From a virus, in IMG/VR virus record IMGVR_UViG_3300008954_000236, positions 1-26,491 of that record: a stretch of DNA of 26,491 nucleotides; one strand, written 5' to 3'. Positions 4,938 to 23,144 of this stretch are shown here, one piece after another. The translations under genes and the position numbers were made by a program. The notes under the pieces are model-generated. The model ran no database searches. It saw nothing but the letters and a program-made list of their open reading frames with translations, and had not been told where the DNA came from. The first letter of the stretch is position 1, and each line of letters starts with the position of its first letter.

Positions 4938-7037
4938 TTATGCAATTAAGTCTTTAATTGCCGCAAAACTTTCTGCGTGTCTAACAGCAACATCTACATC
5001 GTATAATCCGATTATTCTAGTACCACCTTTAGCGGCATTAGTGTAAGGATCAACCGATATGTCCAAAGAACCCCATTCTCCAATGATCAAATCATTGAAA
5101 TTTCCAAAAGTAAGAGCAGAACAAGTTCCACTTGCTGTACCTTTAGTTAAATTATCTGGAGAGTTTGTTGTTGAAAAGACTTTATATCCCATCAAGTTGT
5201 TTTGATCGTTCATAATCATAACAGAGTCAGATGAACTAACTTTTGCTATTGCCATAAGACGAGAAATTTGAAGTGGAGAAGTAACCCAGCCCAATGCACC
5301 TATATTCGCATTGTCAGTAGCAACTTCTTTCCAAGTTTCAACAACTTTAGCCCAAGTAGCTTGATCGCCATTCGTACCCATAGCAACTGATCCAATTCCA
5401 GAAGTATTTAAAATACCTGTTGGAGTGTTGGAAGTACCATCGCCTTGAATAGCTTTTTTATCAACTTCGTTAGATAATGTCTGTATTATGTCATTTCTAA
5501 CAATAGTTTCGATAGCTGGAGTAGATTGGTGCATTAAGTGTCTTGATATGTCAGTAAATGTTCCTAATGTTTTAGGAGCCATTGTTACTTGTCTGTAAGT
5601 TGGATTAACTTCCGTTACTGCCGCATTTTCTGCAACCCAAGACGCTGAATTAACTGCGTTTTGTGCTGGTATTGCAACATCACCAACTAGACCACTCAAA
5701 ACTAAAGCACCTGCTTGTTTCACAACCATTCTTGCTCTTAACGCTTCAATAAATGAACCTGCTAAAAGGTTAGTTGCTACTAAAGCACCACCATCGCCAC
5801 TTACTCCTGAAATTAAATCTCTTTGCCATCTAATGTCAGATGGAATGAAGATTCCTCTAGGAGATTTGCCTGTTTTACGAGAGATTTCATCAGACGCTTC
5901 TTTTTCAAGTTCAGCACCAGACCAATTTCCAGTTGTCATCGCTTTAATAGCTTTGACAATAGAATAGTCTTGTGTTTCTCTATTAGAAAGTCCAACTGCA
6001 TCTTTTTTATCCAAAGGTTTCGCATCGCCAAGTTTGTCTAAAACAATTCCTCTAAATTGAGCAAGAGAAACGCCATCATTAACTGCTTTACTCGCTAGGT
6101 CAGAACAATTATGTCTTGCACCTAATGAACTAATTTCTTTAATTCTAGCTGTTTCTTCTTTTCTCGCTTTAGCGATTTGTTCTTCAACATTAACTGGAGA
6201 TTGTTCCACTTTTGGAGTTTCTTTTGCTTTTTCCATTGTGTTTTCTCTAGTTATGACCTCAATAACTTCTTTACGATTATCTTGGTCGGTTAAATTATCA
6301 TATCTATTTCTTCCTACGCCAACAGTTGTGTCTGCTGGTATGGAAACAATAGACGCTTCCAATGGTTTCCAATTAACACGATAACTTGGCTTTTCCTTAT
6401 CCTCATCATCATTTTTAATTTTCTCCATCTTCATTATTTCATAGCCCACACTCACATTACTGCGAATGCCATCTATGACATCACGAAAAACCTCATCAGC
6501 TAGTTTTGATTTTCCAAATCTCACGACTGCACGACCTACCTTGTCAGCATCGCTGATATTTGCTTTTTCTATGACTCCTATTTGCTTTTCTAAATCGTGG
6601 TTAAGCAATAATGGTGCTTTACCACTAGCAATAAATGAAAAATCCACATCTTGCGGATTATGACTTAAAATTTCTGTTCCAAAACTTCTATCGTATGGTT
6701 CTTCTGATGAAAATGCTAAATTAACAGTTCTCTTATCTTCGTTAATTGCTTTTTGATCTAATCCAAAAAGACGATATAATTTTTCTTTAGTAGATTCTTG
6801 ATTAGTTACTTTTTGTTGAATTTCCTTTTTAGTTTCCATACTCTTTTCGTTTTCTTTTTGTTCTTGTTTCTCAACAGGTTTCTTTTCTTCTTTAGAAAGT
6901 GATGGTACATTATTTTTTGCACCAGATTGCTCCCTGTCCCCTTCTTTGTTATCGCCATCTGATTTTCCAAATGTTATTGTGACTGAATCGTTTGATTCAC
7001 TTATATCTTGTATGTGCTTTTTATTCATATTATTCAT
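4938..7037 (-). CDS. Fused prohead protease - HK97-fold major capsid protein
   Basis: One 699-residue reading frame carries both functions. Residues 1-100 are charged and low in complexity. Residues about 105-245 are an HK97-type (S78) prohead protease, with the likely catalytic His147 in LLLNHDLEKQIG and Ser196 in VSVGYE. Residues 268-400 are helical and charged, like a delta/scaffold domain. Residues about 405-699 are the capsid protein, with GGALVATNLLAGSFIEALR, the SASWVAENAAVTEVNPTY segment and the C-terminal strand VDVAVRHAESFAAIKDL. In HK97 and lambda relatives the protease cleaves the delta domain during maturation. An ATG at codon 268 (6236) could start a capsid-only product, though its ribosome site is weak. 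The gene lies right after the portal. Confidence 0.92.
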   Translation of the reverse strand: MNNMNKKHIQDISESNDSVTITFGKSDGDNKEGDREQSGAKNNVPSLSKEEKKPVEKQEQKENEKSMETKKEIQQKVTNQESTKEKLYRLFGLDQKAINEDKRTVNLAFSSEEPYDRSFGTEILSHNPQDVDFSFIASGKAPLLLNHDLEKQIGVIEKANISDADKVGRAVVRFGKSKLADEVFRDVIDGIRSNVSVGYEIMKMEKIKNDDEDKEKPSYRVNWKPLEASIVSIPADTTVGVGRNRYDNLTDQDNRKEVIEVITRENTMEKAKETPKVEQSPVNVEEQIAKARKEETARIKEISSLGARHNCSDLASKAVNDGVSLAQFRGIVLDKLGDAKPLDKKDAVGLSNRETQDYSIVKAIKAMTTGNWSGAELEKEASDEISRKTGKSPRGIFIPSDIRWQRDLISGVSGDGGALVATNLLAGSFIEALRARMVVKQAGALVLSGLVGDVAIPAQNAVNSASWVAENAAVTEVNPTYRQVTMAPKTLGTFTDISRHLMHQSTPAIETIVRNDIIQTLSNEVDKKAIQGDGTSNTPTGILNTSGIGSVAMGTNGDQATWAKVVETWKEVATDNANIGALGWVTSPLQISRLMAIAKVSSSDSVMIMNDQNNLMGYKVFSTTNSPDNLTKGTASGTCSALTFGNFNDLIIGEWGSLDISVDPYTNAAKGGTRIIGLYDVDVAVRHAESFAAIKDLIA

Positions 7038-7042
7038 ATCTA

Positions 7043-8521
7043 TTATTTTTCTTGTTCTTCTTCAACCTCTTTTGGTTGATTATCTTGTATTTGTTTTTGT
7101 CCAAATGGTTCAAACGCTAATTGTATTCCAAATTTATCAGCTAATTCTTTATCTGACTGAATCTGACTAAATACATCTTCTACATCACGACCATAACCAG
7201 ATTGAACGTCTTGAAATGATAAAAAACCATTCTCTACTCCTACTTTTAACGCTTCTACTTCTTTTTTAGGATCAATCCATTGCCAACCTCTTGCTCTCCA
7301 AATTGGATTATTAAATTTAGGAAATTTAGAAGGTGGTAAACCATTTAATTTATCTGTTAATAATACCATTTCTAACCAATGAGCATAAATAACATCGTGA
7401 AAGTTTCGAATCATACGATATTGTTCACATTGAAAAAAATTACGTTCTTCTAATGCACCTTGTCTGATACTAGAATAATTTACACTCTCTAAATCATTTG
7501 CAAGTGTATTATAACTAACATTTAAACTACTAGCGACAGTTCTGATAACTGCTTTAGTAAAATCTTTAAATGCAGTTGTTGGGTGTTGTGGATCAAAAGA
7601 CTGAAAATCTGTTCCAGTTGGTAATTGTTCAAAAGTACCTGCTTCTGCATACATAACTGGATTGTTTGTGTCTATTTTATCTTCTCCAGTATAACCATCT
7701 GCATCATTTGATTTAAAGAAACCCATTTTACTTGCACCTACTCTAGCGGCTACCAATTCTGCTTCCATATAACCATCAAGCATTTTTAAATCTCTTAAAC
7801 AAGAAGCTAAAGGTGGAATACCACGAGTTTGATGTGGTCTTTCTTGATGATAGTAGTGTATTATTTCACTAGCAGGAACAACATTATATTTTTCACCAAT
7901 ATAAGGACTAACAACTAAATCATCGTTTGGGTGTAATTTAAGTAAATGATAATTAACAGGTTTTCCAAACTTATTAACTTCGACTCCCATTCTAATTTGA
8001 TTACCATTACTTAATTGTTGATTTAAGTCGTGATCTAAAAAATCAGATTCAATAAATTCTATTGCAAACTTATGTGGATTATCAAAATTTTTAATTAATC
8101 TAATTAATACTTCACCATCTCTTGCATAAGTTTCAGCAAATAATCTTTGACATTCTATCCAACCTAATTTCTCATCAGCAGTACATCTAACTCCCCATTC
8201 TTTAAATCTACGTTCAATAGTATTATTAGCAAAGCTATCTAATGCTCCATTTGGATCACGACTTCTAACTTGTAAATGAACTCCTTTGGCTCCAACAATA
8301 TTATCAACATAAACACTAATATATCGTCTAGCATAAGCATTATTTCTTGATAAATCTCTTGCTCTACTTCTTAAAACTCTTAAACTTTGTTTAATTTCAC
8401 TATCAGCAGATTTAGAAGTTAAAACAAAATTATTTAATAATCTATTTTGTGATGCACCAGCATAAAAGCTACGTCTTTTTCTTTTTCTAAATATATTTTT
8501 TAATCTATCAACCAACGTCAT
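7043..8521 (-). CDS. Portal protein, lambda family
   Basis: A 492-residue portal subunit; twelve form the DNA gate at one capsid vertex. The start is basic (RLKNIFRKRKRR). The segment LRSRARDLSRNNAYARRYIS at about 50-70, followed by VDNIVGAKGVHLQVRSRDPN, is the hallmark of the lambda-type portal family (NN..a...i.....n.VG..G). Later come DGEVLIRL, EIIHYYHQERPHQTRGIPPL and SYNTLANDLESVNYSSIRQG, all conserved in this family. Lambda B has a protease-cleaved N-terminus; I cannot tell if that applies here. It overlaps the gpW-like gene by 14 bases, which suggests coupled translation. Confidence 0.95.
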   Translation of the reverse strand: MTLVDRLKNIFRKRKRRSFYAGASQNRLLNNFVLTSKSADSEIKQSLRVLRSRARDLSRNNAYARRYISVYVDNIVGAKGVHLQVRSRDPNGALDSFANNTIERRFKEWGVRCTADEKLGWIECQRLFAETYARDGEVLIRLIKNFDNPHKFAIEFIESDFLDHDLNQQLSNGNQIRMGVEVNKFGKPVNYHLLKLHPNDDLVVSPYIGEKYNVVPASEIIHYYHQERPHQTRGIPPLASCLRDLKMLDGYMEAELVAARVGASKMGFFKSNDADGYTGEDKIDTNNPVMYAEAGTFEQLPTGTDFQSFDPQHPTTAFKDFTKAVIRTVASSLNVSYNTLANDLESVNYSSIRQGALEERNFFQCEQYRMIRNFHDVIYAHWLEMVLLTDKLNGLPPSKFPKFNNPIWRARGWQWIDPKKEVEALKVGVENGFLSFQDVQSGYGRDVEDVFSQIQSDKELADKFGIQLAFEPFGQKQIQDNQPKEVEEEQEK

Positions 8522-9098
8522 TAAATTGTACCTTTACTACTCTACCTGATCCTTCTTTATTACCAGTTCTAAATTCAGCAACTTCTTTTTGATATTCTGC
8601 TTTATAATAATCTCTCCATTGTAATAATTCAGCTATACCAATTTTACTTAATGATCTTCCTTGAATTGAATAACTTGAAACATCTGCATCTGCTCTACCT
8701 TCTAAAATGCTTTCAATTTTTTCAAGCATTTTTTTGGCGTGACTTCTAGTATCTCCAGTAGTTGCAAAATAATTATCTTTTACTGTTAATTTTCCAGAAT
8801 CTATAATTATTGTTTCACTATCACTTGTTTGAAGAACTTTTAAAAACCATTGATAATCTCCAGCAGTATAACTAGATGTAGCAGAATTATCTAAAGTAAA
8901 AGTATAATCTGTTCCTGACTCTGTAACTGTTGCTGAAAATCTTATTGAGCCATCGGTTTCTCTTGATGCTTCCCAAACCATAGAGTGACTTGATGGATCA
9001 TAGTCAGAACCAATATCTGTTCTTTTCCATACAACAGTTTCGCCTTTGTATATTACTATTGGTTCTTTTTCAGGTATATCTGTAAATAAATTTGCCAT
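8508..9098 (-). CDS. gpW-like head-tail joining protein with N-terminal beta domain
   Basis: The 196-residue product lies between the large terminase and portal, exactly where lambda W lies. The C-terminal part (about 115-180) is helical and has SYSIQGRSLSKIGIAELLQW followed by RDYYKAEYQKE, the signature of gpW-like joining proteins that close the packaged head. Residues 1-110 are a separate beta-rich domain (EPIVIYKGETVVWKRTDI ... TAGDYQWFLKVLQT ... IIDSGKLTV), similar in pattern to Ig-like modules at the start of phage baseplate or decoration proteins. Lambda gpW is only 68 residues and lacks such a domain, so this looks like a fusion. The joining function is inferred from the C-terminus and gene order. 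Confidence 0.7.
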   Translation of the reverse strand: MANLFTDIPEKEPIVIYKGETVVWKRTDIGSDYDPSSHSMVWEASRETDGSIRFSATVTESGTDYTFTLDNSATSSYTAGDYQWFLKVLQTSDSETIIIDSGKLTVKDNYFATTGDTRSHAKKMLEKIESILEGRADADVSSYSIQGRSLSKIGIAELLQWRDYYKAEYQKEVAEFRTGNKEGSGRVVKVQFNDVG

Positions 9099-9104
9099 AT
9101 TATT

Positions 9105-10919
9105 TTAATTATTCCACGATTTAGCAAAATTAGTATGTTTTTTATAATGTTTCAACCTACTTTGGTTGACTTTATGATTCATTTGTGTTTGCCCACTTTT
9201 TTGTTTTTCGGATATTCTATTCAAGTCTGCGTTTAACAATGTAAAAGCTGATAGTGCATAAACTCTACAATCTAACGCTTCATTTCTTGGTCGCATTAAT
9301 ACCCATTCACGTTTTTTAAAACCTCGTCTATATTTTGTTACAATTTTTTCTGCTGTTAATTGTCTAAAATACTCCTCGCTATATTTAGTAGGAAAATGAC
9401 AATATCCAGCACCTAAATTCTTAACCCTTAATCTCGAATATATTAATTCTTTAGCAGTATCAACGCCAATAGGAAATAAAGTTACTCTGGCTATGTTATT
9501 ACGACTTGGCCTTCCTACAATCGGTTTCCCTTCTCCACCTATACCTTTAATCGCAAAGACTCGTCTTGCATATCGAGTCTTACAGAACTGATAAACAGTA
9601 TTTGTATGGTGTCCACTATCTATACAAGTTGATATTATCTTTAATTTAGAGCCATCTGACTTATCATACGTTTTTGTTAATAACATTTCTAACTCTTGCC
9701 ATATTGCTGGTGCTGATGGATCGCCATAAAGTATATGATAATCAATACTCCACGTTTCTTCTTCTAAACCCCAACCTACTACTTCACATTCTATTCTATC
9801 ATCTTGAATATCTACTCCTGCTGTTAATAAGATAATTTCATCAGGAAACTTATAATCTTCTCGTCTATCATATAGACCTAAATCATCAATACGTTCTCCT
9901 TCATCTTCCCAAGTTTCTCCTAAATAAGTATTAACAAAGACTCTTAATGTTTCAGGAAGTTTTTTTGCTCGTAAGAACTCACCTACTGCTTCTTCCATTG
10001 TTACCCATACTGAATATAGTCCATTTAATCTAAAACCTGCTCGTCCATTAAATAATTGTGTTGCTTTCCATTTACCTTTACTAATATTGGCTACTCTTTC
10101 AACATCACTCCATTTTTTTTCACAATGCTCACAAATATATTTAGCTGTTGCTGGTTTATTCTTTTCCCATTGTACTTGCGACCATTTTAAAGTTTGTTTT
10201 TTATTACATTTATGACAAGGAACATAAAATAGTCTTTGGTCGCTCTCTTCATAAGCAGATTCAATAGCACTCGCACCTTTAACTGTTGGAGTTGATGTTA
10301 ATACTAACTTACTATCCCAAAATGTAGCACTTCTTCTTTTCGCTAACATAACTGGATCGCCTTCACTTCCTGCTGTTGGTGGGTATCTATCAATCTCGTC
10401 ACATAAAACTATTTTAATAGGTCTTGATGCTAAAGACGCAGGACTATTTGCACCACAAGCTGTTATATGACCACCTTCAAATACTTTATGCAATACAGTA
10501 TTGCCTGAATCTTTACTTTTAACATCAGCAACTTTAGCTTTAAGTATATTACTATCTCGAATCATTGGTGCTAATCTATCTTGCGACCAAGCACGAGCCA
10601 TTTCCAATGTTGGTTGAACAATTAATATAGGAGCAGGTGCATAAGCAATATAATAACCAATTGCATTAAGTAAGACTTCTGTTTTACCTATTTGAGAACA
10701 AGACATTACAACAACTTCATTAATCGCTGGATCATTTATACTATCCATTATTTCTTTTTGAAATATGGCTCTTGCAGTTTCAAATTTACCAGCTTCACTA
10801 CTGCTTTCAGTAGATAAGTGTCTAAATTTATCTGCCCATTGACTTATTTTTAGGTGTGGCGGTGGTTTTATTAGACTCATTGTTTTTTGCCACACTTCTG
10901 TCATCGCTGGAGATTTCAT
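9105..10919 (-). CDS. Terminase large subunit, gpA family
   Basis: The DNA-packaging motor and nuclease, about 604 residues. Counting from the ATG at 10919: Walker A-like MSCSQIGKT at 72-80, Walker B VLCDEID with D174/E175, a four-cysteine zinc knuckle (C235, C238, C263, C266) typical of the gpA family, and nuclease acidic residues D370 (AGVDIQDD), D434 (CIDSGHH) and D550 (NEALDCRVYAL). I prefer this start because GAGG lies 6 bases before it; an in-frame ATG at 10931 has no ribosome site. The start lies within the small-terminase gene. gpA-type terminases usually cut at cos sites, so this phage may have cohesive ends; I did not identify cos. Confidence 0.93.
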   Translation of the reverse strand: MKSPAMTEVWQKTMSLIKPPPHLKISQWADKFRHLSTESSSEAGKFETARAIFQKEIMDSINDPAINEVVVMSCSQIGKTEVLLNAIGYYIAYAPAPILIVQPTLEMARAWSQDRLAPMIRDSNILKAKVADVKSKDSGNTVLHKVFEGGHITACGANSPASLASRPIKIVLCDEIDRYPPTAGSEGDPVMLAKRRSATFWDSKLVLTSTPTVKGASAIESAYEESDQRLFYVPCHKCNKKQTLKWSQVQWEKNKPATAKYICEHCEKKWSDVERVANISKGKWKATQLFNGRAGFRLNGLYSVWVTMEEAVGEFLRAKKLPETLRVFVNTYLGETWEDEGERIDDLGLYDRREDYKFPDEIILLTAGVDIQDDRIECEVVGWGLEEETWSIDYHILYGDPSAPAIWQELEMLLTKTYDKSDGSKLKIISTCIDSGHHTNTVYQFCKTRYARRVFAIKGIGGEGKPIVGRPSRNNIARVTLFPIGVDTAKELIYSRLRVKNLGAGYCHFPTKYSEEYFRQLTAEKIVTKYRRGFKKREWVLMRPRNEALDCRVYALSAFTLLNADLNRISEKQKSGQTQMNHKVNQSRLKHYKKHTNFAKSWNN

Positions 10920-11349
10920 AGAGTGCCTCATATATTTTATCTTGTAATATTAGTTTAATTTCGTTTATACTCTTAACTGTAACAACAACAGGAGCAACCT
11001 TATTTGGTATTGACAATAATTTTTGTTTTACTTTCTGTACTAATTCTAGCCAAGTGCGTTTTACTTCTTCTTTCGGTATTAATTCGCCTGTTGCCTTCAT
11101 TTTTTCTATTTCTGCTAGTTCTGCTTTCGCTTTAAGTAATTTATTTTTATTCTTTAATACTTCTTCTGCTGTAAAATCACCACCTACTTTAGCTTTTAGA
11201 TAATCAATATAACCTTGAACGCTTCCTATTAAATCATACTTACCTCTTTCAGCTTTAGGTATAATTTCTTCTTTAGCTAATTGTTGTATTCTTCTTTCAG
11301 ATAACTTTAGTAGTTTTGCAATAGCTTGAATATTAAATGATGTAGCCAT
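10828..11349 (-). CDS. Terminase small subunit, Nu1-like
   Basis: A 173-residue DNA-recognition subunit. The N-terminus is a winged-helix/MerR-like domain (FNIQAIAKLLKLSERRIQQL then EEIIPKAERGKYDL) followed by VQGYIDYLKAK. Next is a long coiled helix rich in K, A and E (LLKAKAELAEIEKMKATGEL) and IPKEEVKRTW, the hallmark of Nu1-like and phage TerS proteins. The C-terminal part should hold the contact with TerL. The gene begins directly after a TAA and ends about 90 bases inside the TerL gene, so the pair is strongly coupled. Confidence 0.9.
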   Translation of the reverse strand: MATSFNIQAIAKLLKLSERRIQQLAKEEIIPKAERGKYDLIGSVQGYIDYLKAKVGGDFTAEEVLKNKNKLLKAKAELAEIEKMKATGELIPKEEVKRTWLELVQKVKQKLLSIPNKVAPVVVTVKSINEIKLILQDKIYEALYEISSDDRSVAKNNESNKTTATPKNKSMGR

Positions 11350-12334: not shown

Positions 12335-12840
12335 TACCAAGTATGCCCGCAACTAGGACATTCATTTTTTTTACTTATTGTTTCTTCATTGTCTTGCATA
12401 GTTCCAGCTAATGCTTTGGCTATTTCTTCTTGACTAAAGCCAATGTTATTAAACCATTCTGCATCTAACTTACTGTTTAATTCTAATTCTGCTAATTCAG
12501 TTCTTAATAAATTCTTATCCCATTCTGATTCATCTGCAACTCTATTATCTGCTAGTCTATATTTTCTAATATCTAAATCTGATAAATGATTTAATTCAAT
12601 ATAAGGAACTTGTTCCATTCCTAATTTCTTTGCCGCTTCATATCTTGTATGACCACTAACTATAATCTTATCAATCATATTATTAATAGTAATAGGAACA
12701 TTAAATCCAAACGACTTAATAGATTCAGCAACTAAAGGAATTGCTTTAGTAATTTTTCTAGGATTTTTTGCGTATGGTACCAGATGATCTATTGGTATCT
12801 GTTTTAAATTAGGATTGATCTTTATGTTTAGTTTTGGCAT
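12334..12840 (-). CDS. ParB/Srx-fold protein with C-terminal zinc-ribbon-like tail
   Basis: A 168-residue protein with the ParB N-terminal fold: QIPIDHLVPYAKNPRKI (about 14-30), IKSFGFNVPITINN and the GHTR motif in KIIVSGHTRYEAAKKLG (60-74), then YIELNHLSDLDIRKYRLADN. In many phages and plasmids this domain is joined to a DNA methylase or works alone as a CTP/ATP-binding or nuclease domain. Here there is no methylase. Instead the protein ends ECPSCGHTW, a half zinc ribbon that could pair with a second copy or partner. It sits ahead of the terminase genes, so a role in packaging or DNA marking is possible. It overlaps the 2OG gene by 32 bases. Confidence 0.85.
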   Translation of the reverse strand: MPKLNIKINPNLKQIPIDHLVPYAKNPRKITKAIPLVAESIKSFGFNVPITINNMIDKIIVSGHTRYEAAKKLGMEQVPYIELNHLSDLDIRKYRLADNRVADESEWDKNLLRTELAELELNSKLDAEWFNNIGFSQEEIAKALAGTMQDNEETISKKNECPSCGHTW

Positions 12841-13495
12841 TTGAAAAAATTAGATTTAAGCTAAAAGTTCTTCGTTCTCCTTTTATATCTGGAAATTTAT
12901 ATTTGCTTTTAAAAGGATAAACTTGATGATCTAACCAATGTGGAAACATATAGAACTCTCCAACAACTGGTTTAACTTTCATATTGTTAGGACAATTCAA
13001 ACCAATCGTTCCATATCTAAAGTCTGTATAACCACCAAAAGGATTATGATCTTTATCTTCTTCTGCCCAATATTCATTTATATCATCAGGAAGTTTTAAA
13101 TAACCTAAACAGCTTATTTGACAACCAGTATGATAGTGAGCAGGATTAAAATCGCCAGCATATTGTCTAACATACCAACCACTAGCTATCCCAACTTTGA
13201 AATTATCTTTTTGTTCTTTGTAATCTTTATCGCTTGGAAACAAATATCGAGAAGTAACAGCATTAAACCAATGAGCGTGTTTAAGTAATATATCTTGACT
13301 AATATGATATTCTTCTTCAACTCGACCTGCTAATTGATCTGACCAATCTCGTTTTTCTTTTTTCTTATTAGATATATCTAAACAGTCTTGATTTAAGTCT
13401 TTTACAATATCTTCTGGCATCTTACATTTTAAAATGCTTGGCCCAAAAGGTCTTATAATATCAATAAGTGTTTTGTTTTTTGGTTCATCGCCCAT
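12809..13495 (-). CDS. 2-oxoglutarate/Fe(II) oxygenase
   Basis: A 228-residue protein resembling the TIGR02466-type oxygenases found in marine phages. The iron site looks to be in NPAHYHTGCQISCLGYLKLP (H120, H122) with the distal histidine H190 in GEFYMFPHWLDHQVYPF and the 2OG-binding arginine in KGERRTFSLNLIF. The product could hydroxylate a protein or a nucleic-acid base; the substrate is unknown. The gene is first in the block read from the promoter at 13503-13530, and its ATG comes 7 bases after the -10 box with no ribosome site, so its mRNA may be leaderless. Confidence 0.82.
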   Translation of the reverse strand: MGDEPKNKTLIDIIRPFGPSILKCKMPEDIVKDLNQDCLDISNKKKEKRDWSDQLAGRVEEEYHISQDILLKHAHWFNAVTSRYLFPSDKDYKEQKDNFKVGIASGWYVRQYAGDFNPAHYHTGCQISCLGYLKLPDDINEYWAEEDKDHNPFGGYTDFRYGTIGLNCPNNMKVKPVVGEFYMFPHWLDHQVYPFKSKYKFPDIKGERRTFSLNLIFSNAKTKHKDQS

Positions 13496-15886: not shown

Positions 15887-16165
15887 CTATAAGATATCGT
15901 ACCCATTCAGCTTCTCCCTTGTTTTTTTTAATAATTCTTCCTCTGTTCCATATCTTTTTTCAAACATTAATTTATTGTTATGTATTGAAAATGCTCCTAA
16001 ATGATGATTGTAGCATAAGGGAATCGTATCAAAATGTGAACTCCTACGACCAATTCCTGTACCTATTGGTCTGATATGATGCACTTGTACTTGTGGACTA
16101 TCACAAATAATGCAGTTTAAAGAAGCTACTCTTTTAAGATGTGCTATTTCCTTCTGCGTTTTCAT
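15887..16165 (-). CDS. HNH nuclease of Ref / DUF968 type
   Basis: A 92-residue nuclease with C18-x2-C21 (CIICDSPQ), HH at 29-30 (VQVHHIRP), the glycine- and arginine-rich turn GTGIGRRSSHFDTIPLC and H54/H55 (CYNHHLGA), followed by a helix KRYGTEEELLKKTREKL. This is the arrangement of the RecA-dependent Ref nuclease of phage P1 and related DUF968 proteins, which cut DNA at D-loops. It lies in the replication/recombination block, consistent with a role in recombination. It starts after AAGGA and overlaps the XRE gene by 32 bases. Confidence 0.8.
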   Translation of the reverse strand: MKTQKEIAHLKRVASLNCIICDSPQVQVHHIRPIGTGIGRRSSHFDTIPLCYNHHLGAFSIHNNKLMFEKRYGTEEELLKKTREKLNGYDIL

Positions 16166-16457
16166 CTTTTCTTTCCTTACGATTATACTTATTAATTAAG
16201 AAACCAATTTTACATTCAGGAATTTTTAAAGCTAATCTTAATGGCTCTAATCTAAATGTACTAATAGAATTAACTCCTTTTTCATACTTCTGAACTTGTT
16301 GAAATGTGACGTTCATCACATTAGCAATATCAGTTTGAGTTAGTTTAATTTGCCTTCTTCTTCTTTTCATTTTTTTACCTAAAAAGATTCTACGTTTTAT
16401 ATCTTCTTCTAGGTAAACATTTCTTGTGCCTTTAGGTCGTCCTAGTTGCTTAAACAT
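16134..16457 (-). CDS. XRE-family transcription regulator
   Basis: A 107-residue DNA-binding protein. The helix-turn-helix covers about residues 28-80 with the core LTQTDIANVMNVTFQQVQKY then EKGVNSIS, a clear Cro/CI-type pattern. The N-terminus has QLGRPKGTRN, resembling an AT-hook core, and a basic run KKMKRRRRQIK. There is no protease-linked C-terminal domain, so it is a small repressor or activator, not a full CI. It is in the middle of the early operon, preceded by a strong ribosome site (AAAGGAGATAAGTAATG), so it may time the switch from early to late expression. Confidence 0.85.
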   Translation of the reverse strand: MFKQLGRPKGTRNVYLEEDIKRRIFLGKKMKRRRRQIKLTQTDIANVMNVTFQQVQKYEKGVNSISTFRLEPLRLALKIPECKIGFLINKYNRKERKDENAEGNSTS

Positions 16458-16669
16458 TACTTATCTCCTTTCTGTGATTGATAAAAAGCAAAAGTCTTTT
16501 TTACTTTTTCTGGTAATAGTTTAAATAAGCGTTTCCAACACTCCTTACAATAAGCGTGGTCGTCCCAAGCAGAACTACCACTACTAAACCATATGAGTTT
16601 AGATTGTTCTTTTAAACATCTGCTACAATTCATAGCTAGATATTTATTTTTTGTTACTTTTTTAACCAT
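16457..16669 (-). CDS. Four-cysteine zinc-ribbon protein, 70 aa
   Basis: Seventy residues from the ATG at 16669. It contains CSRC near residues 15-18 and CKEC near 41-44, spaced to form a zinc ribbon, with the polar turn WFSSGSSAWDDHAYCKECW between. The tail KLLPEKVKKTFAFYQSQKGDK is helical and basic. A longer frame runs upstream but covers the well-supported 107-aa gene in another frame, so I use this start. Its last codons (CAG AAA GGA GAT AAG TAA) form the ribosome site of the XRE gene. Probably a nucleic-acid or protein adaptor. Confidence 0.65.
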   Translation of the reverse strand: MVKKVTKNKYLAMNCSRCLKEQSKLIWFSSGSSAWDDHAYCKECWKRLFKLLPEKVKKTFAFYQSQKGDK

Positions 16670-16985
16670 AATAACGACTGAATACTCTATCAAGTAAAGC
16701 AGATAACAATGTTGATCGTTCTCCAGATGAATCTTTGAAATATTTTTTGGCGTTTTCTTTAATTTCAACAACATTATCAACTTGCATATTTGCATAAGAG
16801 CATACAGATTTAATTTCATCTTGATTATTAAACCAGCTTTCAGCTTCGTAAATGATTCTGTGCCGAGTTGCCAAGCGGTTGTTAAATTTACTGTCCTCAA
16901 AAATACCACAGCAATCGAGTATGGCTCGTTTAATAACTGCTCTCCATAATTTAAGTTCTGGCGATAATTCTGTATTTGATAACAA
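16662..16985 (-). CDS. Conserved phage protein of unknown role, 107 aa
   Basis: The product begins LSNTELSPELKLWRAVIKRA and has ESWFNNQDEIKSVCSYANMQ VDNVVEIKE in its middle. This follows the widespread phage pattern 'ELrlW.avl..AI.D....' plus 'A..Wf.s.d...vC..A.ld...v', found in many phage replication and late-control blocks without a known function. The likely start is TTG at 16985, 6 bases after GGA of the previous stop region; no in-frame ATG is near the N-terminus. It contains a CC pair (LDCCGIF). It overlaps the zinc-ribbon gene by 8 bases. Confidence 0.7.
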   Translation of the reverse strand: MLSNTELSPELKLWRAVIKRAILDCCGIFEDSKFNNRLATRHRIIYEAESWFNNQDEIKSVCSYANMQVDNVVEIKENAKKYFKDSSGERSTLLSALLDRVFSRYYG

Positions 16986-16988
16986 CCT

Positions 16989-17261
16989 TTATCCATTTTC
17001 TGCCCCCTTAAATAAATTACCTTGCTTTCTATCTTCTGGTGTCCACAAAAAATCGTGAAGTCCATAAGTACCACCATATTTACTCTTAATATATAAACTA
17101 GGTTTAGTTTGCAAAAGTTTTTTTAGTACATCAGTAGATAATCGCATAGAATCGCTTTTATACTTAACTAATAGACCACCTCTATCTATACCAATCTTTA
17201 TCCAATTACTTCTTAAACTAGCGTGTCCATTCCATAGTTTTTTAATTGTTACATCAATCAT
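16989..17261 (-). CDS. Unknown protein, 90 aa
   Basis: Starts at the ATG at 17261, which overlaps the TAA of the exonuclease gene (TAATG). The protein begins MIDVTIKKLWNGHASLRSNW, a beta-rich pattern, and continues IKIGIDRGGLLVKYKSDSM, then a helix (LSTDVLKKLLQ) and the end YGLHDFLWTPEDRKQGNLF. No known motif. A partner role for the exonuclease is possible because the two are translationally coupled. Confidence 0.7.
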   Translation of the reverse strand: MIDVTIKKLWNGHASLRSNWIKIGIDRGGLLVKYKSDSMRLSTDVLKKLLQTKPSLYIKSKYGGTYGLHDFLWTPEDRKQGNLFKGAENG

Positions 17262-18025
17262 TAAAAACCCCATATATCCTTTCTAGCTTTTAATTTAGTT
17301 TCATCGTTCCATTTCCAATCATCTGGATTAGGCGTGATGAGTCTTTTAAAATCATCTTTAGAGTTAGCTAAACTACAAAGATAATTCATATTCTCAATCG
17401 CTTGATGAATCAGTAAAGGAATCTTAACATTATCTTCATCTGTTAATTCATATTCCTGTACTTCTTCTTTTGTTTTGAGAACTTTAACATAGAACAGCTT
17501 GTTAGGTTTGTTAGTAGCTGTCTTATAAATGTGTTGTGCTATCTTATGACCTGTTGATACGTTGATTTTTTTTGTTGTTTTTAAATCTAATATCAATGGA
17601 GAGCCATCAGGTAATTCAAAATCAAAATCAGTATAACCTATAATGTCAATACCTTTATAGTTATAACCTATCTTATTTTGATAACCTGTAATCTTACCAA
17701 ATTTAGATAAATGTTTAGGTAGTATCTTAATTGCTTTTTCAACAAACTCTTTTTCTTTTAAATATTCTTCTTCAGGTACTTTCATTTCTTTACAAGTTTC
17801 AGCAAAGAAATATGTTTGTTCTTCTAGTGCTTTTTCTACTGATACTCCATTTCCTAGAATATGAAATAATGCTTTTTCAATATACTTACCTCTTTCTGCG
17901 GCCGCACTACTAGGAAAAGGTAATTTATAAATATAATTAATAACCCATTCTGCTGAATTGGTTATAAATGTATTAATGTTACTTGCTGAAATATGTTTGA
18001 TTTTATGTTTTCTAAATGCTTCCAT
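17261..18025 (-). CDS. PD-(D/E)XK exonuclease, RecB/Cas4-like
   Basis: A 254-residue nuclease. Key parts are ISASNINTFI at 12-21, the helix AAERGKYIEKALF with E50, the metal site D133 in IIGYTDFDFELPDGS, D147-x-K149 in LILDLKTT, and the QxxxY-like AQHIYKTA helix at about 163-170. There is no cysteine cluster, so it is not a standard iron-sulfur Cas4. It would process DNA ends during phage replication and recombination. An annealase-like gene lies two genes upstream, so the two could act like lambda Exo and Beta. It is coupled by TAATG to the genes on both sides. Confidence 0.85.
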   Translation of the reverse strand: MEAFRKHKIKHISASNINTFITNSAEWVINYIYKLPFPSSAAAERGKYIEKALFHILGNGVSVEKALEEQTYFFAETCKEMKVPEEEYLKEKEFVEKAIKILPKHLSKFGKITGYQNKIGYNYKGIDIIGYTDFDFELPDGSPLILDLKTTKKINVSTGHKIAQHIYKTATNKPNKLFYVKVLKTKEEVQEYELTDEDNVKIPLLIHQAIENMNYLCSLANSKDDFKRLITPNPDDWKWNDETKLKARKDIWGF

Positions 18026-18189: not shown

Positions 18190-18475
18190 CTAAATTATCT
18201 TTTTGCTCTGGCACTTTTTTAGGCATATCAACTACATTTTGCTTTACGCCTAACGCTTCTTTATTACCAGAGAAAATGACTTTTCCTTTTTTTGTCTTAT
18301 TCTTCCACAGACTTACGCTAGACAACATCATATCTTTATCAGTAGCATAACCATATAAAGATGGTTTATTGTCCCCAGATGTTTTATTTTCATTAACATA
18401 TAAAACAATCTTATTAGGCCCTTTTGGGCCATAAGACTGGGCAGCAGCTATAACATCAGCTTTATTAAACGCCAT
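18173..18475 (-). CDS. Unknown protein, 100 aa, acidic C-terminal tail
   Basis: The N-terminal 70 residues are beta-rich (NKIVLYVNENKTSGDNKPSL, then YATDKDMMLSSVSLWKNKTK and KGKVIFSGNKEALG). A flexible linker rich in K, V and P follows, with an acidic and hydrophobic end DNLDDILS. This layout of a compact domain plus acidic tip is like that of single-stranded DNA-binding proteins, and it lies between annealase-like and exonuclease genes, but I do not see a clear OB-fold. So I give no name. The ATG overlaps the upstream TAA (TAATG) after AAGGAGATAAAC. Confidence 0.7.
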   Translation of the reverse strand: MAFNKADVIAAAQSYGPKGPNKIVLYVNENKTSGDNKPSLYGYATDKDMMLSSVSLWKNKTKKGKVIFSGNKEALGVKQNVVDMPKKVPEQKDNLDDILS

Positions 18476-18978
18476 TAGTTTATCTCCTTGTCTATTTGCT
18501 CGTTCATATCTAAATGTCCAACTTCTGGAGTTATTTCATCTGCTGTTGCAACAACATTTCCAACTGCAAATAAACTTTTTAAACAACGTCCCCAAGCGGC
18601 AGTTTGACAACATTCAACTGCTCTAGCTAATTGAACATTTCTTGAAGTATGGTCTTTTCTTCGTTCAGCTAATCCTGAAGAAACGAAGAATCCAGACTTG
18701 TGATATAAAGACGCTTCAATTACGACTCGATGTTCGCAATCGTGTTTTATATCTGTTTTAAGCACAAGAGAGTGAGCAAATTTATCTCTCAATACTTTCA
18801 TTAAAGTTGCGACAGTTAAATATCGCTTACCTTTAATATTTACCCAAGACATACCTTCTTCTTTATCATCAGCTAATATATCTAGGAGTTCCTTTCTTCC
18901 TTGATTGATAAACTCACGAATCAAATCATCACGCATACGATCCGCAGTTACATCAATTACTTTTACACTATCAGTCAT
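18475..18978 (-). CDS. Single-strand annealing protein candidate (Erf/Sak-like)
   Basis: A 167-residue protein. The C-terminal half has LARAVECCQTAAWGRCLKSL then FAVGNVVATADEITPE, which follows the pattern 'a.a.e.AqT.A.gRaL...G.....iAsadE' of phage annealases such as Erf and Sak relatives. The N-terminal half is beta-rich (YLTVATLMKVLRDKF, VLKTDIKHDCEHRVVIEASL) with a positively charged loop (GLAERRKDHTSRN) suited to DNA binding. The nearby PD-(D/E)XK exonuclease supports a recombination role. I did not test the fold; a general ssDNA-binding accessory protein is also possible. Confidence 0.55.
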   Translation of the reverse strand: MTDSVKVIDVTADRMRDDLIREFINQGRKELLDILADDKEEGMSWVNIKGKRYLTVATLMKVLRDKFAHSLVLKTDIKHDCEHRVVIEASLYHKSGFFVSSGLAERRKDHTSRNVQLARAVECCQTAAWGRCLKSLFAVGNVVATADEITPEVGHLDMNEQIDKEIN

Positions 18979-19225: not shown

Positions 19226-19350
19226 AACACTATCCTTTCTAGGTGCTGTACTAAATTAAAATGTAAGTGTGGAACTTTAATACAGCACCATTTTATGTTT
19301 AAAAAATGTTCCATTTTCACTATCCTTGAGTAACGCAACAAGAATTTCAT
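19222..19350 (-). CDS. Small protein, 42 aa
   Basis: Starts at the ATG at 19350 with an excellent ribosome site (AAGGAG, 5 bases before it). It overlaps the previous TGA and its own TGA overlaps the lipoprotein ATG, so it is coupled on both sides. The product begins MKFLLRYSRIVKMEHFLNIK and has a CC pair (WCCIKVPHL). An internal ATG at 19314 also has a good ribosome site (AAGGATAGTG). The 3' part contains the 9-bp inverted repeat at 19242-19289. Possibly a leader peptide for the lipoprotein instead of a functional protein. Confidence 0.55.
   Translation of the reverse strand: MKFLLRYSRIVKMEHFLNIKWCCIKVPHLHFNLVQHLERIVL
19242..19289. repeat. 9-bp inverted repeat ahead of the lipoprotein gene
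   Basis: GGTGCTGTA (19242-19250) and TACAGCACC (19281-19289) are perfect complements around a 30-base spacer that has a second partial stem TTAAA / TTTAA. The structure ends 16 bases before the lipoprotein start (19225), just ahead of its ribosome site. It could control translation or mRNA stability. Confidence 0.5.
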
Positions 19351-19640
19351 TTAATCTCCTTATTATTTTCAAAATAATGTTTAGTATTAATATTAGCAAC
19401 ATTATTAATAAAGGGTGCAAAACACATTTTCCTATTAGTGCTATCAAATCTAGTGTAATTAGTTCCTGAAAAACGAGTAAAAAAATATCTTTTTACTATT
19501 ATTCCATTTTCTTCTTCATCTTCCCAAATTATAATAGCTGTTCCAAATTTTGCTTTAGAGAATCTTGTTTTTTTAACTATTCCATCTACTTTAATAATGT
19601 ATTTTTGTTTTTCTCCTGTTAAATATTCTCCCTTTTTCAT
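19347..19640 (-). CDS. Unknown early protein, 97 aa
   Basis: The product starts MKKGEYLTGEKQKYIIKVDG and is beta-rich, basic and aromatic (AIIIWEDEEENGIIVKRYFF, then TRFDSTNRKMCFAPFINN). No motif I know. Its ATG is in copy 1 of the repeated 17-base junction, so it is one of the cassette-like early genes. Its last codons (AAT AAG GAG ATT AAA TGA) provide the ribosome site for the 42-aa gene. Confidence 0.7.
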   Translation of the reverse strand: MKKGEYLTGEKQKYIIKVDGIVKKTRFSKAKFGTAIIIWEDEEENGIIVKRYFFTRFSGTNYTRFDSTNRKMCFAPFINNVANINTKHYFENNKEIK

Positions 19641-19654
19641 TACTGATTCTCCTT
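19638..19654 (-). repeat. Junction repeat, copy 1 (AAGGAGAATCAGTAATG)
   Basis: First of four identical 17-base copies on the minus strand. It carries the ribosome site AAGGAG, the stop TAA of the papain-like gene and the ATG of the 97-aa gene, and encodes the upstream C-terminus KENQ. Confidence 0.9.
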
Positions 19655-20245
19655 AATGTAATATCCATAAACACATCTAGTTCCACTTCTTGAACAATTA
19701 TAAGTGTCATTAATAACTCCATCTATTACTGATGTTATATGTTTTGAAACTCTTACAATTAATTTTCCTTGTGGTAATTCATTTTTTCTTAAATGAACTT
19801 TACAACCTTGACCAATTTTCATTGTAGGAATCCATTTAAAACCAAGTTTTTTAATATATGAATCATACACATCTTTATAAACTCCATTTCTAGGAGAATC
19901 GTCTTTAGGTTTAGCAATTTTAGAATGTTTGGAATTGCTATTTAATCTCCAATTTGTAGTAAGTGTGTAAAGATCATTATAAACTTTTTGATATGGTAAT
20001 CCTGACGCAATACTTATTGATCTAGTAACGCAATCTCCAGTAGTTCCTTTATAACCTGCTTTTTCTCGACCACCATCGTTATTTAAAAAATCTAAATCAA
20101 ACCAAGATTCAACACAAAAATCTCCGCCCTTTAATAGTTTTTGTTTTTCTAATTCAAAGTATTTTTTATAAGATAATCTTCTTCCATAATTTCCACCTTT
20201 ACAATGTAAAGTCGAACATCTTTTACCTTTAATTATTTTTTCCAT
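19640..20245 (-). CDS. Papain-like cysteine protease candidate
   Basis: A 201-residue protein with the likely catalytic Cys72 at the start of a helix (TTGDCVTRSISIASGLPYQ), His169 in LIVRVSKHITSVIDG and a following Asp180 in VINDTYN, then CVYGYYI. This 'GDC..RA..IA.G..Y..vy' plus 'kH...v.dG...Dt' pattern is common in phage proteins with a papain-like fold and mostly no known substrate. An extra N-terminal segment has CSTLHCKGG, possibly a metal or disulfide site. As an early gene it may cut a host protein or work as an isopeptidase; this is inference. It ends in the shared KENQ tail. Confidence 0.65.
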   Translation of the reverse strand: MEKIIKGKRCSTLHCKGGNYGRRLSYKKYFELEKQKLLKGGDFCVESWFDLDFLNNDGGREKAGYKGTTGDCVTRSISIASGLPYQKVYNDLYTLTTNWRLNSNSKHSKIAKPKDDSPRNGVYKDVYDSYIKKLGFKWIPTMKIGQGCKVHLRKNELPQGKLIVRVSKHITSVIDGVINDTYNCSRSGTRCVYGYYIKENQ

Positions 20246-20259
20246 TACTGATTCTCCTT
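20243..20259 (-). repeat. Junction repeat, copy 2 (AAGGAGAATCAGTAATG)
   Basis: Identical to copy 1. It joins the stop of the 220-aa gene and the start of the papain-like gene and again encodes the upstream KENQ tail. Confidence 0.9.
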
Positions 20260-20907
20260 TATTTTTGGTCTTGCTATTACAGTTACAGGCATACCAATAT
20301 TAGTTTTACAATCTACATCTTTAATATCTGTAGTGTGTTGTTTAATTGTAGCTTTAACAGTAATTTTATCTCCAACTTTATAGATTTCTCTATCTCTTAT
20401 TGAATCATTTTCGGTTTTATATTTTTCTACAAATGCTTTAGATGCACCAAAATAAATAAGTTTATTATTATTTTTATCAGTAAATTTATGGCAATAACCA
20501 CATATAGCACGATCAGAAAATTCAGTATAAATTGGGTAAGTAAATATTTCTGTAATAGTAAGTTCTAAATCTAATTTATCTCCAACATTACCAATATGAG
20601 AAAATTTAGAGTATTTATCTTGAATAGTTTTTTTGTGTTTTTCATATTCTAATTTTGCTAAATAATCTTGATGATTTATAATATGTTGATCTTGTTGTTT
20701 TGGTATTGAAGTGTATCTTTCCCAAGAATTTCTATACCAAATATTTATAGGAACATCAAAACCAACATAATTTTTAGCTTTAATTTTTGCTTCTTTTAAA
20801 TCAGTTGATAATTTTGAAATATAAGTTTTACCATCATTTAAAATATAAAAGATTCCTTCTGCACCTTTTGAGATATGATAGCCAGATGGTATATTATCTA
20901 TAAACAT
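20245..20907 (-). CDS. Unknown early protein, 220 aa, possible OB-fold half
   Basis: Residues 1-95 are a mixed domain (MFIDNIPSGYHISKGAEGIF, then IWYRNSWERYTSIPKQQDQ). The second half looks like a beta barrel: HIGNVGDKLDLELTITEIF, then ICGYCHKFTDKNNNKLIYFG, VGDKITVKATIKQHTTDI. The pattern 'G....l.l.v.....f....D..gn.l.yF......Gd.i.v.atik.H' resembles phage proteins with an OB-like nucleic-acid-binding fold. CGYCH could bind a metal. The family has no name I can give. Shared KENQ tail. Confidence 0.65.
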   Translation of the reverse strand: MFIDNIPSGYHISKGAEGIFYILNDGKTYISKLSTDLKEAKIKAKNYVGFDVPINIWYRNSWERYTSIPKQQDQHIINHQDYLAKLEYEKHKKTIQDKYSKFSHIGNVGDKLDLELTITEIFTYPIYTEFSDRAICGYCHKFTDKNNNKLIYFGASKAFVEKYKTENDSIRDREIYKVGDKITVKATIKQHTTDIKDVDCKTNIGMPVTVIARPKIKENQ

Positions 20908-20921
20908 TACTGATTCTCCTT
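20905..20921 (-). repeat. Junction repeat, copy 3 (AAGGAGAATCAGTAATG)
   Basis: Identical to the other copies. It joins the stop of the 121-aa gene and the start of the 220-aa gene, with ATTAAGG directly upstream as in copy 1. Confidence 0.9.
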
Positions 20922-21272
20922 AATATGATTAATATTCCATTCTGCTGGAGAAGAAGCTGTTTTAACAGCATCAGTCTTAACACATATTTGTTTGAATTTA
21001 TTTTTTCTTAATATTTTATTAATGTATTCTTCAACTTTAGAAAAATCAGCACTATCTTTTCTTCTTAATGTTTTAGTAATATTGCTGTGTGGCATTTCAA
21101 TACTAATCCACCATATAGCTTGAACACCATAACCACAGTATCTTAAATCATTAGCTTGTTCACATATTCTAATATCTGTATGTTTTTGCTCATATTCCCA
21201 TTTTGAAGTTTTAGAATTAAATAAAAAACCACGAGTGCTTTTTTTCATATCGTATGTAACTATTCTTTCCAT
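20907..21272 (-). CDS. Unknown early protein, 121 aa
   Basis: The product begins MERIVTYDMKKSTRGFLFNS and is beta-rich at first (SKWEYEQKHTDIRICEQAND then GVQAIWWISIEMP) with a basic helix later (VEEYINKILRKNKFKQICV). There are three cysteines. I recognise no motif. It starts at a TAATG overlap with the 373-codon gene, with a ribosome site AAAGGTTAGG different from the 17-base repeat, and ends in KENQ. Confidence 0.65.
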   Translation of the reverse strand: MERIVTYDMKKSTRGFLFNSKTSKWEYEQKHTDIRICEQANDLRYCGYGVQAIWWISIEMPHSNITKTLRRKDSADFSKVEEYINKILRKNKFKQICVKTDAVKTASSPAEWNINHIKENQ

Positions 21273-22390
21273 TACTTACCTAACCTTTCTCTTGGTGTTG
21301 GTTGTAGTTTCCAATTCTTAATAGCTGTTTCGAATCTTGCTATTTCATTTTCTAAATGAGTTTTATAATCAGACCAAAATTTAGTTAAATATTCTAAAGT
21401 TACTTCTTCAGCTTTTAATGTAATTGGAGTCGCAACTTGTTGACCAGTAAAAAGTATTGCTGGTCTAGTATATCTTTCATAAATTGAATGAACTTTTTTA
21501 ACATTTTCAGAATAATTTTTAGTATCAATTTTTGAAGTTGGATTAAAAAAATCACCCATTTCTTTTTTTTTGTTTCTGTATTCGTATGTTAGTTCATTAG
21601 GTAAATTGTTATATTCTTCTTTTGCTACAAAATAATCTTTAATTCTGTTTTTATAAGCATCAACAGTTACTTGCGTTGGTTGTTCTTTAATTACTTCTTT
21701 TAAAATTGGTTTTAAAACTTGCTTAACATATTCTATTTTTACTTTAGGAGATTTTTCCCAACAATGAAATCTTGCACCAAAACAAACTCCATTTCTTCCA
21801 TTACCAAATTTAATAGTAAATCCATGATCTGCAATTACATTTTTAGTTAAATCAAATTTTTGACGTTCGCCCTCCATATCTACTAATTCCCAATGTTGAT
21901 TACAAATTCCACAAGTTGCTTTATTTTCTTCTGCCGCTTTTTTTAATCTTTCAGCTTCATAATCTTTTTCTAAATCTTTAGGTCTTCTGCCTGATCTTAC
22001 ATTTGGTTTTAAAGATAATAGTTTTTCTTGATCTGCTTTAAGATTTGGAAAATCTATGTAAAGTTGGTTAATATCTAAATCAACAACATACTCTTTAGTT
22101 AAAGTAATATATTTTCCAATTCCTTTACTATCTTCATAAGTGTTAAAAGTTGGATAGTGATAAACAAATTTATTATTCCAAATTGAATTTTCTTTTATAT
22201 GTTTAGGAAGATTATTAGAATAATAAGGATTTTTAGTTTTAGTTGTTTTCTTTAACAAACCTTTAAAGAATTTTCTGTACTTATTAAATTCAGAATTAAA
22301 GATATGTTTGCTTTCAATAATGAAATTATAATTAACTAATTCTTCATTAATTAAATCTTTAAGTTCAGCGTATGTGTAAGTTCTATTCAT
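21272..22390 (-). CDS. Zinc-binding early protein, 372 aa
   Basis: I place the start at the ATG at 22390, preceded by AAAGGAAAG. The central part has CGIC (ATCGICNQHWELVDMEG), then VIADHGFTIKFGNGRNGVCF and GARFHCWEKSP. A CxxC pair followed by DHG(F/Y) and GxC.G is a pattern found in many phage and plasmid proteins and probably binds zinc. The N-terminal 130 residues are helical and basic; after the zinc site come long helical segments (EYVKQVLKPILKEVIKEQP and later a helix near the end). The role is unknown. It is the largest early gene here. Confidence 0.65.
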   Translation of the reverse strand: MNRTYTYAELKDLINEELVNYNFIIESKHIFNSEFNKYRKFFKGLLKKTTKTKNPYYSNNLPKHIKENSIWNNKFVYHYPTFNTYEDSKGIGKYITLTKEYVVDLDINQLYIDFPNLKADQEKLLSLKPNVRSGRRPKDLEKDYEAERLKKAAEENKATCGICNQHWELVDMEGERQKFDLTKNVIADHGFTIKFGNGRNGVCFGARFHCWEKSPKVKIEYVKQVLKPILKEVIKEQPTQVTVDAYKNRIKDYFVAKEEYNNLPNELTYEYRNKKKEMGDFFNPTSKIDTKNYSENVKKVHSIYERYTRPAILFTGQQVATPITLKAEEVTLEYLTKFWSDYKTHLENEIARFETAIKNWKLQPTPRERLGK

Positions 22391-22562
22391 CAAATTTACT
22401 TTCCTTTGCTCTTTTTAATTCTTCTTTTAAAATTGTAGATGGAACATATTTAAGCAAAATATTAAAAATTATATCAATACCTTCATGACTTTCGTTACAA
22501 GCACTTTGAATTTTTGTAGCTAGTATTCTTCTGTTTTTAGTTTCTGGTATTTCTTTAATCAT
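22383..22562 (-). CDS. Helical small protein, 59 aa
   Basis: Short gene between the zincin and the zinc-binding gene. It starts in copy 4 of the 17-base junction and overlaps the next gene by 8 bases. The protein is MIKEIPETKNRRILATKIQS, then CNESHEGIDIIFNILLKYVP and a lysine-rich helix to the end. It is probably all-helical. Clear ribosome site and coding density support it; function unknown. Confidence 0.75.
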   Translation of the reverse strand: MIKEIPETKNRRILATKIQSACNESHEGIDIIFNILLKYVPSTILKEELKRAKESKFDE

Positions 22563-22576
22563 TACTGATTCTCCTT
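22560..22576 (-). repeat. Junction repeat, copy 4 (AAGGAGAATCAGTAATG)
   Basis: Identical to copies 1-3. It joins the stop of the zincin gene and the start of the 59-aa gene, again giving the upstream protein a KENQ C-terminus. Confidence 0.9.
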
Positions 22577-23110
22577 TTTATCTAATTCTTTTAATTTTGG
22601 TCTTAAAAGTTTTGCCGAGTTTGGTATTAAAAACATATCAGCTAATATTCCTTCTTTTGAAAATGCCTCAACTTCCCAAGGTCTTTCTTTATATGGAATT
22701 TGTGATGATTCACCTAAATTTTTTCCTTCCCAATTAACAAGAAGTTTATTTACATCTTTATCAAATTTATAAACTAATCTATTTGAAACAGTTTGTTCAA
22801 CGTGAACTAACTCGTGAGCAAGTGTACTAATCATTTCAGATGTAGATTGATTACTATTTAATTCGATTTTAAATTCTTTTGGAGCATATAATTTTTCATC
22901 GTTTTCAACTTGACCTAAAGTCTTTGTTCCTAAAGTTGTTCTTCTAACATTAATTTTTAATTTTAATCTGCTTAACTTTTTAAATGACATTAATTCTTTA
23001 GAAATAAATTTAGTTGCTGATATTAGTTTTTCAGCTAATACATTGTCATAAGACAATCTTGGTAAGCTGACTGCGATTTTCATTTTTTCGTTCTTTTTAT
23101 TTTTAAACAT
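22562..23110 (-). CDS. HExxH zinc protease-like early protein
   Basis: About 182 residues from the ATG at 23110. The active-site helix is STLAHELVHVEQTVSNRLV, a classic HExxH with following Gln, and PWEVEAF later gives the probable third zinc ligand, as in phage proteins with HExxH...PWE.EA. The first 80 residues are basic (LSRLKLKINVRRTTLGTK). It is first in the early operon, 6 bases after the -10 box of the strong promoter, so the mRNA may be leaderless; an in-frame TTG at 23131 lies within the promoter and is unlikely. A second in-frame ATG is at 23083. Substrate unknown; a host target is possible. Ends in KENQ. Confidence 0.75.
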   Translation of the reverse strand: MFKNKKNEKMKIAVSLPRLSYDNVLAEKLISATKFISKELMSFKKLSRLKLKINVRRTTLGTKTLGQVENDEKLYAPKEFKIELNSNQSTSEMISTLAHELVHVEQTVSNRLVYKFDKDVNKLLVNWEGKNLGESSQIPYKERPWEVEAFSKEGILADMFLIPNSAKLLRPKLKELDKKENQ

Positions 23111-23116
23111 AGCTAA

Positions 23117-23144
23117 ATAATACTTTTTCAACCAGAAAAGTCAA
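23117..23144 (-). promoter_or_regulatory. Strong sigma70-type early promoter
   Basis: On the minus strand: -35 TTGACT (23139-23144), 16-base spacer, -10 TATTAT (23117-23122). Each hexamer matches 5 of 6 consensus bases, the best promoter I found. It drives the early operon that begins with the zincin gene. The expected transcription start falls at the ATG at 23110. Confidence 0.75.

Follow-up and report, generated by a model that had tools for sequence, protein, structure and literature searches.

The early region of the virus recorded in IMG/VR as IMGVR_UViG_3300008954_000236 contains four copies of a 17-bp sequence, AAGGAGAATCAGTAATG, each of which joins the end of one gene to the beginning of the next. 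The window analysed here is the entire record, 26,491 bases in length. The sequence is referred to as the KENQ seam, after the C-terminal residues that it encodes. A sister seam, AAGGAGAGAGCATAATG, in which the tail is KERA in place of KENQ, is frequent in wider relatives, which are designated here by L numbers. The genes and junctions of the region are given below from upstream to downstream, with SD denoting the Shine-Dalgarno sequence and aa amino acids.

22562–23110, minus strand: zincin-like cassette gene, tail KENQ (phrog_10499; DUF6782/M78-like)
22560–22576, minus strand: seam copy 1, AAGGAGAATCAGTAATG (zincin stop, SD, 59-aa start)
22383–22562, minus strand: 59-aa cassette gene (no family match; 98% protein identity in L005/L106, where it also directly follows a KENQ seam)
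21272–22390, minus strand: 373-aa gene, its own start without a seam in the window
21270–21286, minus strand: non-seam junction AGGTTAGGTAAGTAATG (373-aa stop, 121-aa start), with AGTAATG in common with the seam
20907–21272, minus strand: 121-aa cassette gene, tail KENQ (the L153 relative follows a KERA seam)
20905–20921, minus strand: seam copy 2 (121-aa stop, SD, 220-aa start)
20245–20907, minus strand: 220-aa cassette gene, tail KENQ (weak phrog_3628; relatives in L192, L215, L228 and L168 start or end at KERA seams)
20243–20259, minus strand: seam copy 3 (220-aa stop, SD, papain-like start)
19640–20245, minus strand: 201-aa papain-like cassette gene, tail KENQ (phrog_3754; distant relatives after KERA seams in L181 and L191)
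19638–19654, minus strand: seam copy 4 (papain-like stop, SD, 97-aa start)
19347–19640, minus strand: 97-aa cassette gene (the L163 relative follows a KERA seam)

An earlier note on this DNA, made from the letters alone, described four identical stop/SD/start junctions. All four are exact matches, with 0 copies expected from dinucleotide shuffles; the coordinates in that note were right as positions but were given on the plus strand, while the motif itself is on the minus strand. No fifth site occurs in the window, even with up to three mismatches allowed. Each copy holds AAGGAG, the in-frame TAA that ends the upstream gene and the ATG that begins its neighbour, the two codons overlapping as TAATG. 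The four upstream proteins (zincin, 121 aa, 220 aa and the 201-aa papain-like protein) all end in KENQ, and genes of 59, 220, 201 and 97 aa lie directly downstream. The seam-linked proteins have no convincing mutual similarity (the best E-value, 0.022, is between the 373- and 97-aa proteins), which bears out the statement that unrelated proteins share this tail; gene duplication was accordingly rejected as the origin of the repeats. Conservation of the spacer beyond the needs of translation, also proposed in the note, is upheld by the finding that four identical free hexamers have p ~1e-9 at the window's base composition even if the SD and TAATG are assumed to be indispensable, and by the other sequences found at the remaining AAGGAG junctions of the window (AAGGAGATTAAATG, AAGGAGATAAACTAATG and AAGGAGATAAGTAATG).

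The note raised the possibility that early genes are swapped as cassettes at these junctions, in which case relatives should carry the same seams with different genes between them. Comparison of the window with L005/L106 and L057 matched this prediction. L005/L106 (two contigs) are 99% identical to the window from seam copy 1 onward and unrelated to it upstream of the seam; the seam before the 59-aa gene is retained and the zincin gene is absent. L106 also lacks the 121-aa gene, with the 373-aa gene joined directly to a relative of the 220-aa gene through AAGTAATG. The boundary of the 121-aa gene in this comparison is clean at AGTAATG, which, on the evidence of the alignment, is where crossover appears to have added or removed the gene. 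In L057, two KENQ seam copies precede a novel 66-aa gene, itself ending in QKENQ, and the 373-aa gene. A KENQ seam precedes the latter gene in L057, its counterpart in L098 ends in a KERA seam, and no carrier of the gene was found among the phage records of the annotated collection or in a cultured phage. Neither loss of the motif despite an unchanged gene order nor a set of genes that is never swapped was encountered.

The KERA seam extends this pattern to a much larger set of phages. A scan of IMG/VR found AAGGAGAGAGCATAATG in 108 stretches, and 88 of 106 scanned loci encode one or more homologues of window proteins. The 118 copies form 90 pairings between 45 protein families upstream and 69 downstream, and 11 families are found on both sides of the seam. 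Homologues of the window's zincin, 373-, 121-, 220- and 97-aa and papain-like genes all adjoin KERA seams; those of the 220-aa protein surfaced through the seam scan, a protein search of viral contigs having yielded none. The zincin relative in L089, 76% identical, ends in KERA and has a KERA seam on both flanks, and AAGGAGAGAGCATAATG is also carried by L086 and by L100, whose junction is the same as that of L098. Where both seams occur in a protein family, the tail matches the dialect of its own phage, with the zincin and the 220-aa protein each ending in KENQ in one and KERA in the other. At AAGGAG-N6-TAATG sites in loci obtained by protein search and in the window, the hexamers AATCAG and AGAGCA together account for 10 of 15, against an expectation of ~0.03. 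In the cultured SAR11 phage HTVC202P, gp11 ends in DKERA at AAGGAGAGAGCATGA. In L141 (7331–9667, plus strand) and L198, AGGAGAAAGAAATG occurs four times at gene starts, including those of zincin and 373-aa homologues; judged by sequence, AAAGGAGAAAGAAATG in these loci is perhaps a third seam dialect. A host motif was rejected as the origin of the KERA 17-mer, for which a search of 84,980 genomes of bacteria and archaea gave 112 stretches, with none titled SAR11 among the matches listed. An assembly artefact was likewise rejected, the same junctions being present in independent samples (L098–L102; L170/L204/L214; L136/L218) and the DKERA end of gp11 being found in a cultured phage, HTVC202P. 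A 17-bp sequence is also shorter than the usual assembly k-mers.

Exchange at the seam was seen most directly in seam-anchored pairs of contigs, in which identity is 97–99% on one side and ~30%, the chance level, on the other, with the switch falling on the edge of the 17-mer. These positions were read from direct alignments; an automatic histogram of breakpoint extents was too noisy. In addition, 25 mosaic triples over 10 contigs have flanks that match two different relatives, which are themselves mutually unrelated, so that both parental sides must have used the seam independently. In L146, for example, the upstream side matches L154/L200 and the downstream side L172/L089. These dozens of one-sided switches, together with the mosaic triples, carry the cassette reading into the wider relatives. 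An initial count of the ends of high-scoring segment pairs gave only a two-fold enrichment at seams, as most such ends reflect gradual divergence, and the analysis was then limited to abrupt ends. Among 210 distinct abrupt breakpoints, 104 have an SD-ATG junction within 25 nucleotides, compared with 5.8% of random positions (p 3e-70), and the commonest 10-mers at these breakpoints derive from the KERA seam. Together, the alignments provide strong evidence that exchange has taken place at the seam.

The conserved entity is nucleic acid rather than peptide. Comparison of 63 different upstream flanks and 65 different downstream flanks showed no conserved base outside the 17-mer save for a preference for A. 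In 36 of 115 cases, about a third, the KERA frame is not entered by any long gene, and many of these cases are operon leaders. Leaders read the seam in another frame, giving KGESI or KGESV and continuing into the following gene, or leave it untranslated. Since leaders read the seam in another frame, the DNA or RNA is conserved and a C-terminal peptide tag is ruled out. In relatives, a short leader peptide (MLNK.. or MFKK..) often comes first in the early operon and runs into the seam, where it either ends or continues in frame with the next gene. Examples of such leader-peptide seams are:

L144, 5307–5323, minus strand
L151, 5476–5492, minus strand
L192, 3542–3558, plus strand
L005, 4169–4185, minus strand

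These results are best explained, with a probability of about 0.7, by a 17-mer that is a translational junction and doubles as an exchange seam for single genes or small blocks. In the mechanism proposed, gene end, ribosome-binding site and next start are packed into one fixed frame, so that any gene ending in the seam could be joined to any gene starting with it and still be translated in series. Co-infecting phages could then cross over inside the shared junction, trading single genes or small blocks, which would be possible because many unrelated early genes carry the same junction. Pairing of the shared seam would guide the crossover, probably with the help of an exonuclease and a Rad52/Erf-like annealing protein that the phage itself encodes. 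Two genes of the same operon, the second lying two short genes downstream of the first, are suited to these roles:

18475–18978, minus strand: candidate Rad52/Erf/RecT-type single-strand annealing protein, 167 aa (from predicted fold and viral fold matches)
17261–18025, minus strand: PD-(D/E)XK exonuclease (PF12705, E 5e-9; phrog_69 exonuclease, 1.5e-8)

The candidate annealing protein has a predicted β-β-α-β-β-β-α fold (predicted local distance difference test score 73), and its matches among predicted viral structures are phage proteins annotated as ERF, RecT and Rad52; no PDB match at E<=0.001 and no significant Pfam match was obtained. The KERA phages possess a different exonuclease, in common with HTVC202P, and its neighbour ends in DDEIPF, which we take to be reminiscent of the tails of single-stranded DNA-binding proteins. 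Phage Rad52-like recombinases handle diverged sequence better than RecA (PMC3945230). It is possible, although put forward more tentatively than exchange itself, that the seam is retained for the exchangeability that it confers on genes. It would then be an assembly standard for a gene pool that SAR11 phages have in common, with at least two dialects (KENQ and KERA), and would spread by compatibility and be recombined by the phages' annealing proteins.

Several observations weigh against the seam as a dedicated point of exchange. The KENQ seam was found in only three lineages of the phage group (the window, L005/L106 and L057), so that exchange at window copies 3 and 4 is deduced from the KERA seam. 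A scan for the KENQ 17-mer returned 80 IMG/VR stretches, mostly with single copies in unrelated phages, so that the bare 17-mer alone is no marker of the group. The annealing function is assigned to its candidate from a model of medium confidence. The minimal pairing length is reported to be 23–27 bp for Red-beta and 31–34 bp for RecA (PMC3945230), both longer than the 17-bp seam. Moreover, the KERA seam was broken at 29 of 56 testable junctions and SD junctions of other sequence were also broken often (123 of 337); the contrast between the two is weak (Fisher p 0.04) and is inflated by the collection of KERA loci through the seam itself, which favours the detection of breakpoints there. The contrast of SD junctions with starts that lack an SD (130 of 859 broken) is strong, though many of the latter frames may not be genes. 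These counts indicate that SD junctions in general are favoured exchange points and that the seam is the commonest among them in this collection.

The frequency of breakpoints at other SD junctions and the shortness of the seam are also what would be expected if the 17-mer were simply a good ribosome site that hitchhikes with its genes, illegitimate exchange being random and only crossovers at gene boundaries surviving. Selection for breakpoints at gene boundaries is the textbook view of phage mosaicism. Random junctions would not be expected to produce mosaic triples in which the partners on each side reused the seam elsewhere, however, and identity ends at both outer edges of the 17-mer. The hexamer is unnecessary for translation, yet two versions of it dominate the sites in the protein-search loci and the window. 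Hitchhiking is on balance unlikely, and there is moderate evidence that the seam sequence itself guides exchange, as opposed to selection choosing junctions that work.

A regulatory site, at which an RNA-binding protein or antisense RNA would control a set of early genes, was the other possibility raised in the note and has been proposed for the start-associated sequences (SAS) of other phages. It would account for conservation in excess of SD needs and for the constant position at a start codon in an early operon. It explains nothing that exchange does not. Only some operon junctions have the seam, the 373/121-aa junction and the genes past the 97-aa gene being without it, and members of one gene family may be accompanied by KENQ, by KERA or by neither. 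No inverted repeat or terminator-like stem was found at the seams of the window, and a regulatory role is given little credence. A search for RNA structure common to the seams also found none. Least probable of all is a site-specific cassette system in which a phage recombinase or nicking/HNH endonuclease recognises the 17-mer, which would fit the exact sequence, sharp edges, single-gene units and an HNH-like gene (15887–16165) conserved in many relatives, but not the use of at least two sequences for one role, the breakage of other SD junctions or the failure to find a recombinase gene adjoining seams among the window proteins scanned.

The nearest analogue of the seam is SAS, known from Cluster K mycobacteriophages and Cluster EF Microbacterium phages and, in the accounts drawn on here, a 13-bp sequence, GGGATAGGAGCCC, that often has an inverted-repeat extension and in which the stop codon of the preceding gene is not a constant element (PMC3203893; PMC7302621). 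Both are short sequences at the ribosome-site position ahead of genes of many families, and both are conserved past translation needs. The Cluster K authors suggested SAS as a possible recombination target (PMC3203893). These accounts contain no demonstrated exchange at the sites, whereas natural exchange is documented at the seam. The note's mention of SAS as a different, known example was apt: the consensus has no match in the window with up to three mismatches, and the upstream 17-bp inverted repeats of the extended form were not found beside the seams. In Cluster O mycobacteriophages, a 17-bp direct repeat flanks Corndog gene 14, and recombination at the repeat was invoked in the account consulted (PMC4351075). 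There, a gene is flanked by a short stop/start-junction repeat that is single in relatives; that is a single case, whereas the seam is used across a phage group by a large and unrelated set of genes. The 121-aa gene has a partly comparable arrangement, with AGTAATG on its flanks and a single copy in L106, but with just 7 bp shared. L005 retains the seam and lacks the zincin gene, which in the window is not preceded by a seam; the zincin gene of L089 has KERA seams on both sides.

Promoter early stem-loops (PeSLs) of T4-type phages, as summarized in a later account, are units of promoter and stem-loop terminator that shuffle modules (Arbiol 2010; Comeau 2014; via PMC4503421). They share with the seams the character of short repeated elements between early genes, tied to module shuffling; the seams differ in carrying an SD, stop and start and no terminator. 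A PeSL unit was sought at the seams and no terminator-like stem was found, the one promoter-like site being at the operon start. Integron-like attC sites are not indicated, as judged by the lack of inverted-repeat sites at seams, and no integrase was found among the window proteins scanned in a search that was not exhaustive. In lambdoid phages, conserved short boundary sequences at gene borders have been proposed to guide module exchange.

Other features of the window concern the start of the operon and the wider affinities of the phage. The zincin start is most likely the ATG at 23110, rather than the TTG at 23131, and a few bases ahead of it lies the following element:

23117–23144, minus strand: promoter-like TTGACT-16-TATTAT (10 of 12 consensus positions match)

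This element is the predicted operon start, in a region where promoter-like sites are no commoner than in shuffles. Given its proximity to the zincin ATG, the operon's first gene may use a near-leaderless mRNA. The capsid, portal and terminase genes (4938–10931, minus strand) resemble those of Roseobacter phages CRP-811 and CRP-821 (terminase 55–58% and capsid 37–43% identity), whereas counterparts of the early genes occur in two cultured SAR11 phages, HTVC112P and HTVC202P. This combination of late and early regions is, by gene similarity, consistent with large-scale mosaicism, and we infer that the host is SAR11. A 2-oxoglutarate-Fe(II) oxygenase gene (phrog_81, E 3e-23) is present at 12809–13495 on the minus strand. 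At 16457–17273, also on the minus strand, a 206-aa frame overlaps a 94-aa frame (16989–17273); its homologue in L132 is split in two pieces, and the overlap and split together suggest that a frameshift or wrong start is possible.

The origin of gene-border mosaicism in phage genomes is an old question, and earlier proposals from mycobacteriophages that conserved junctions act as exchange points amount, in the accounts drawn on here, to a suggestion or a single case. In the natural population examined here, many switches fall at one defined 17-bp sequence. The existence of two dialects predicts that exchange should be more frequent within than between them, and the setting is that of phages that infect one of the ocean's most abundant bacteria.

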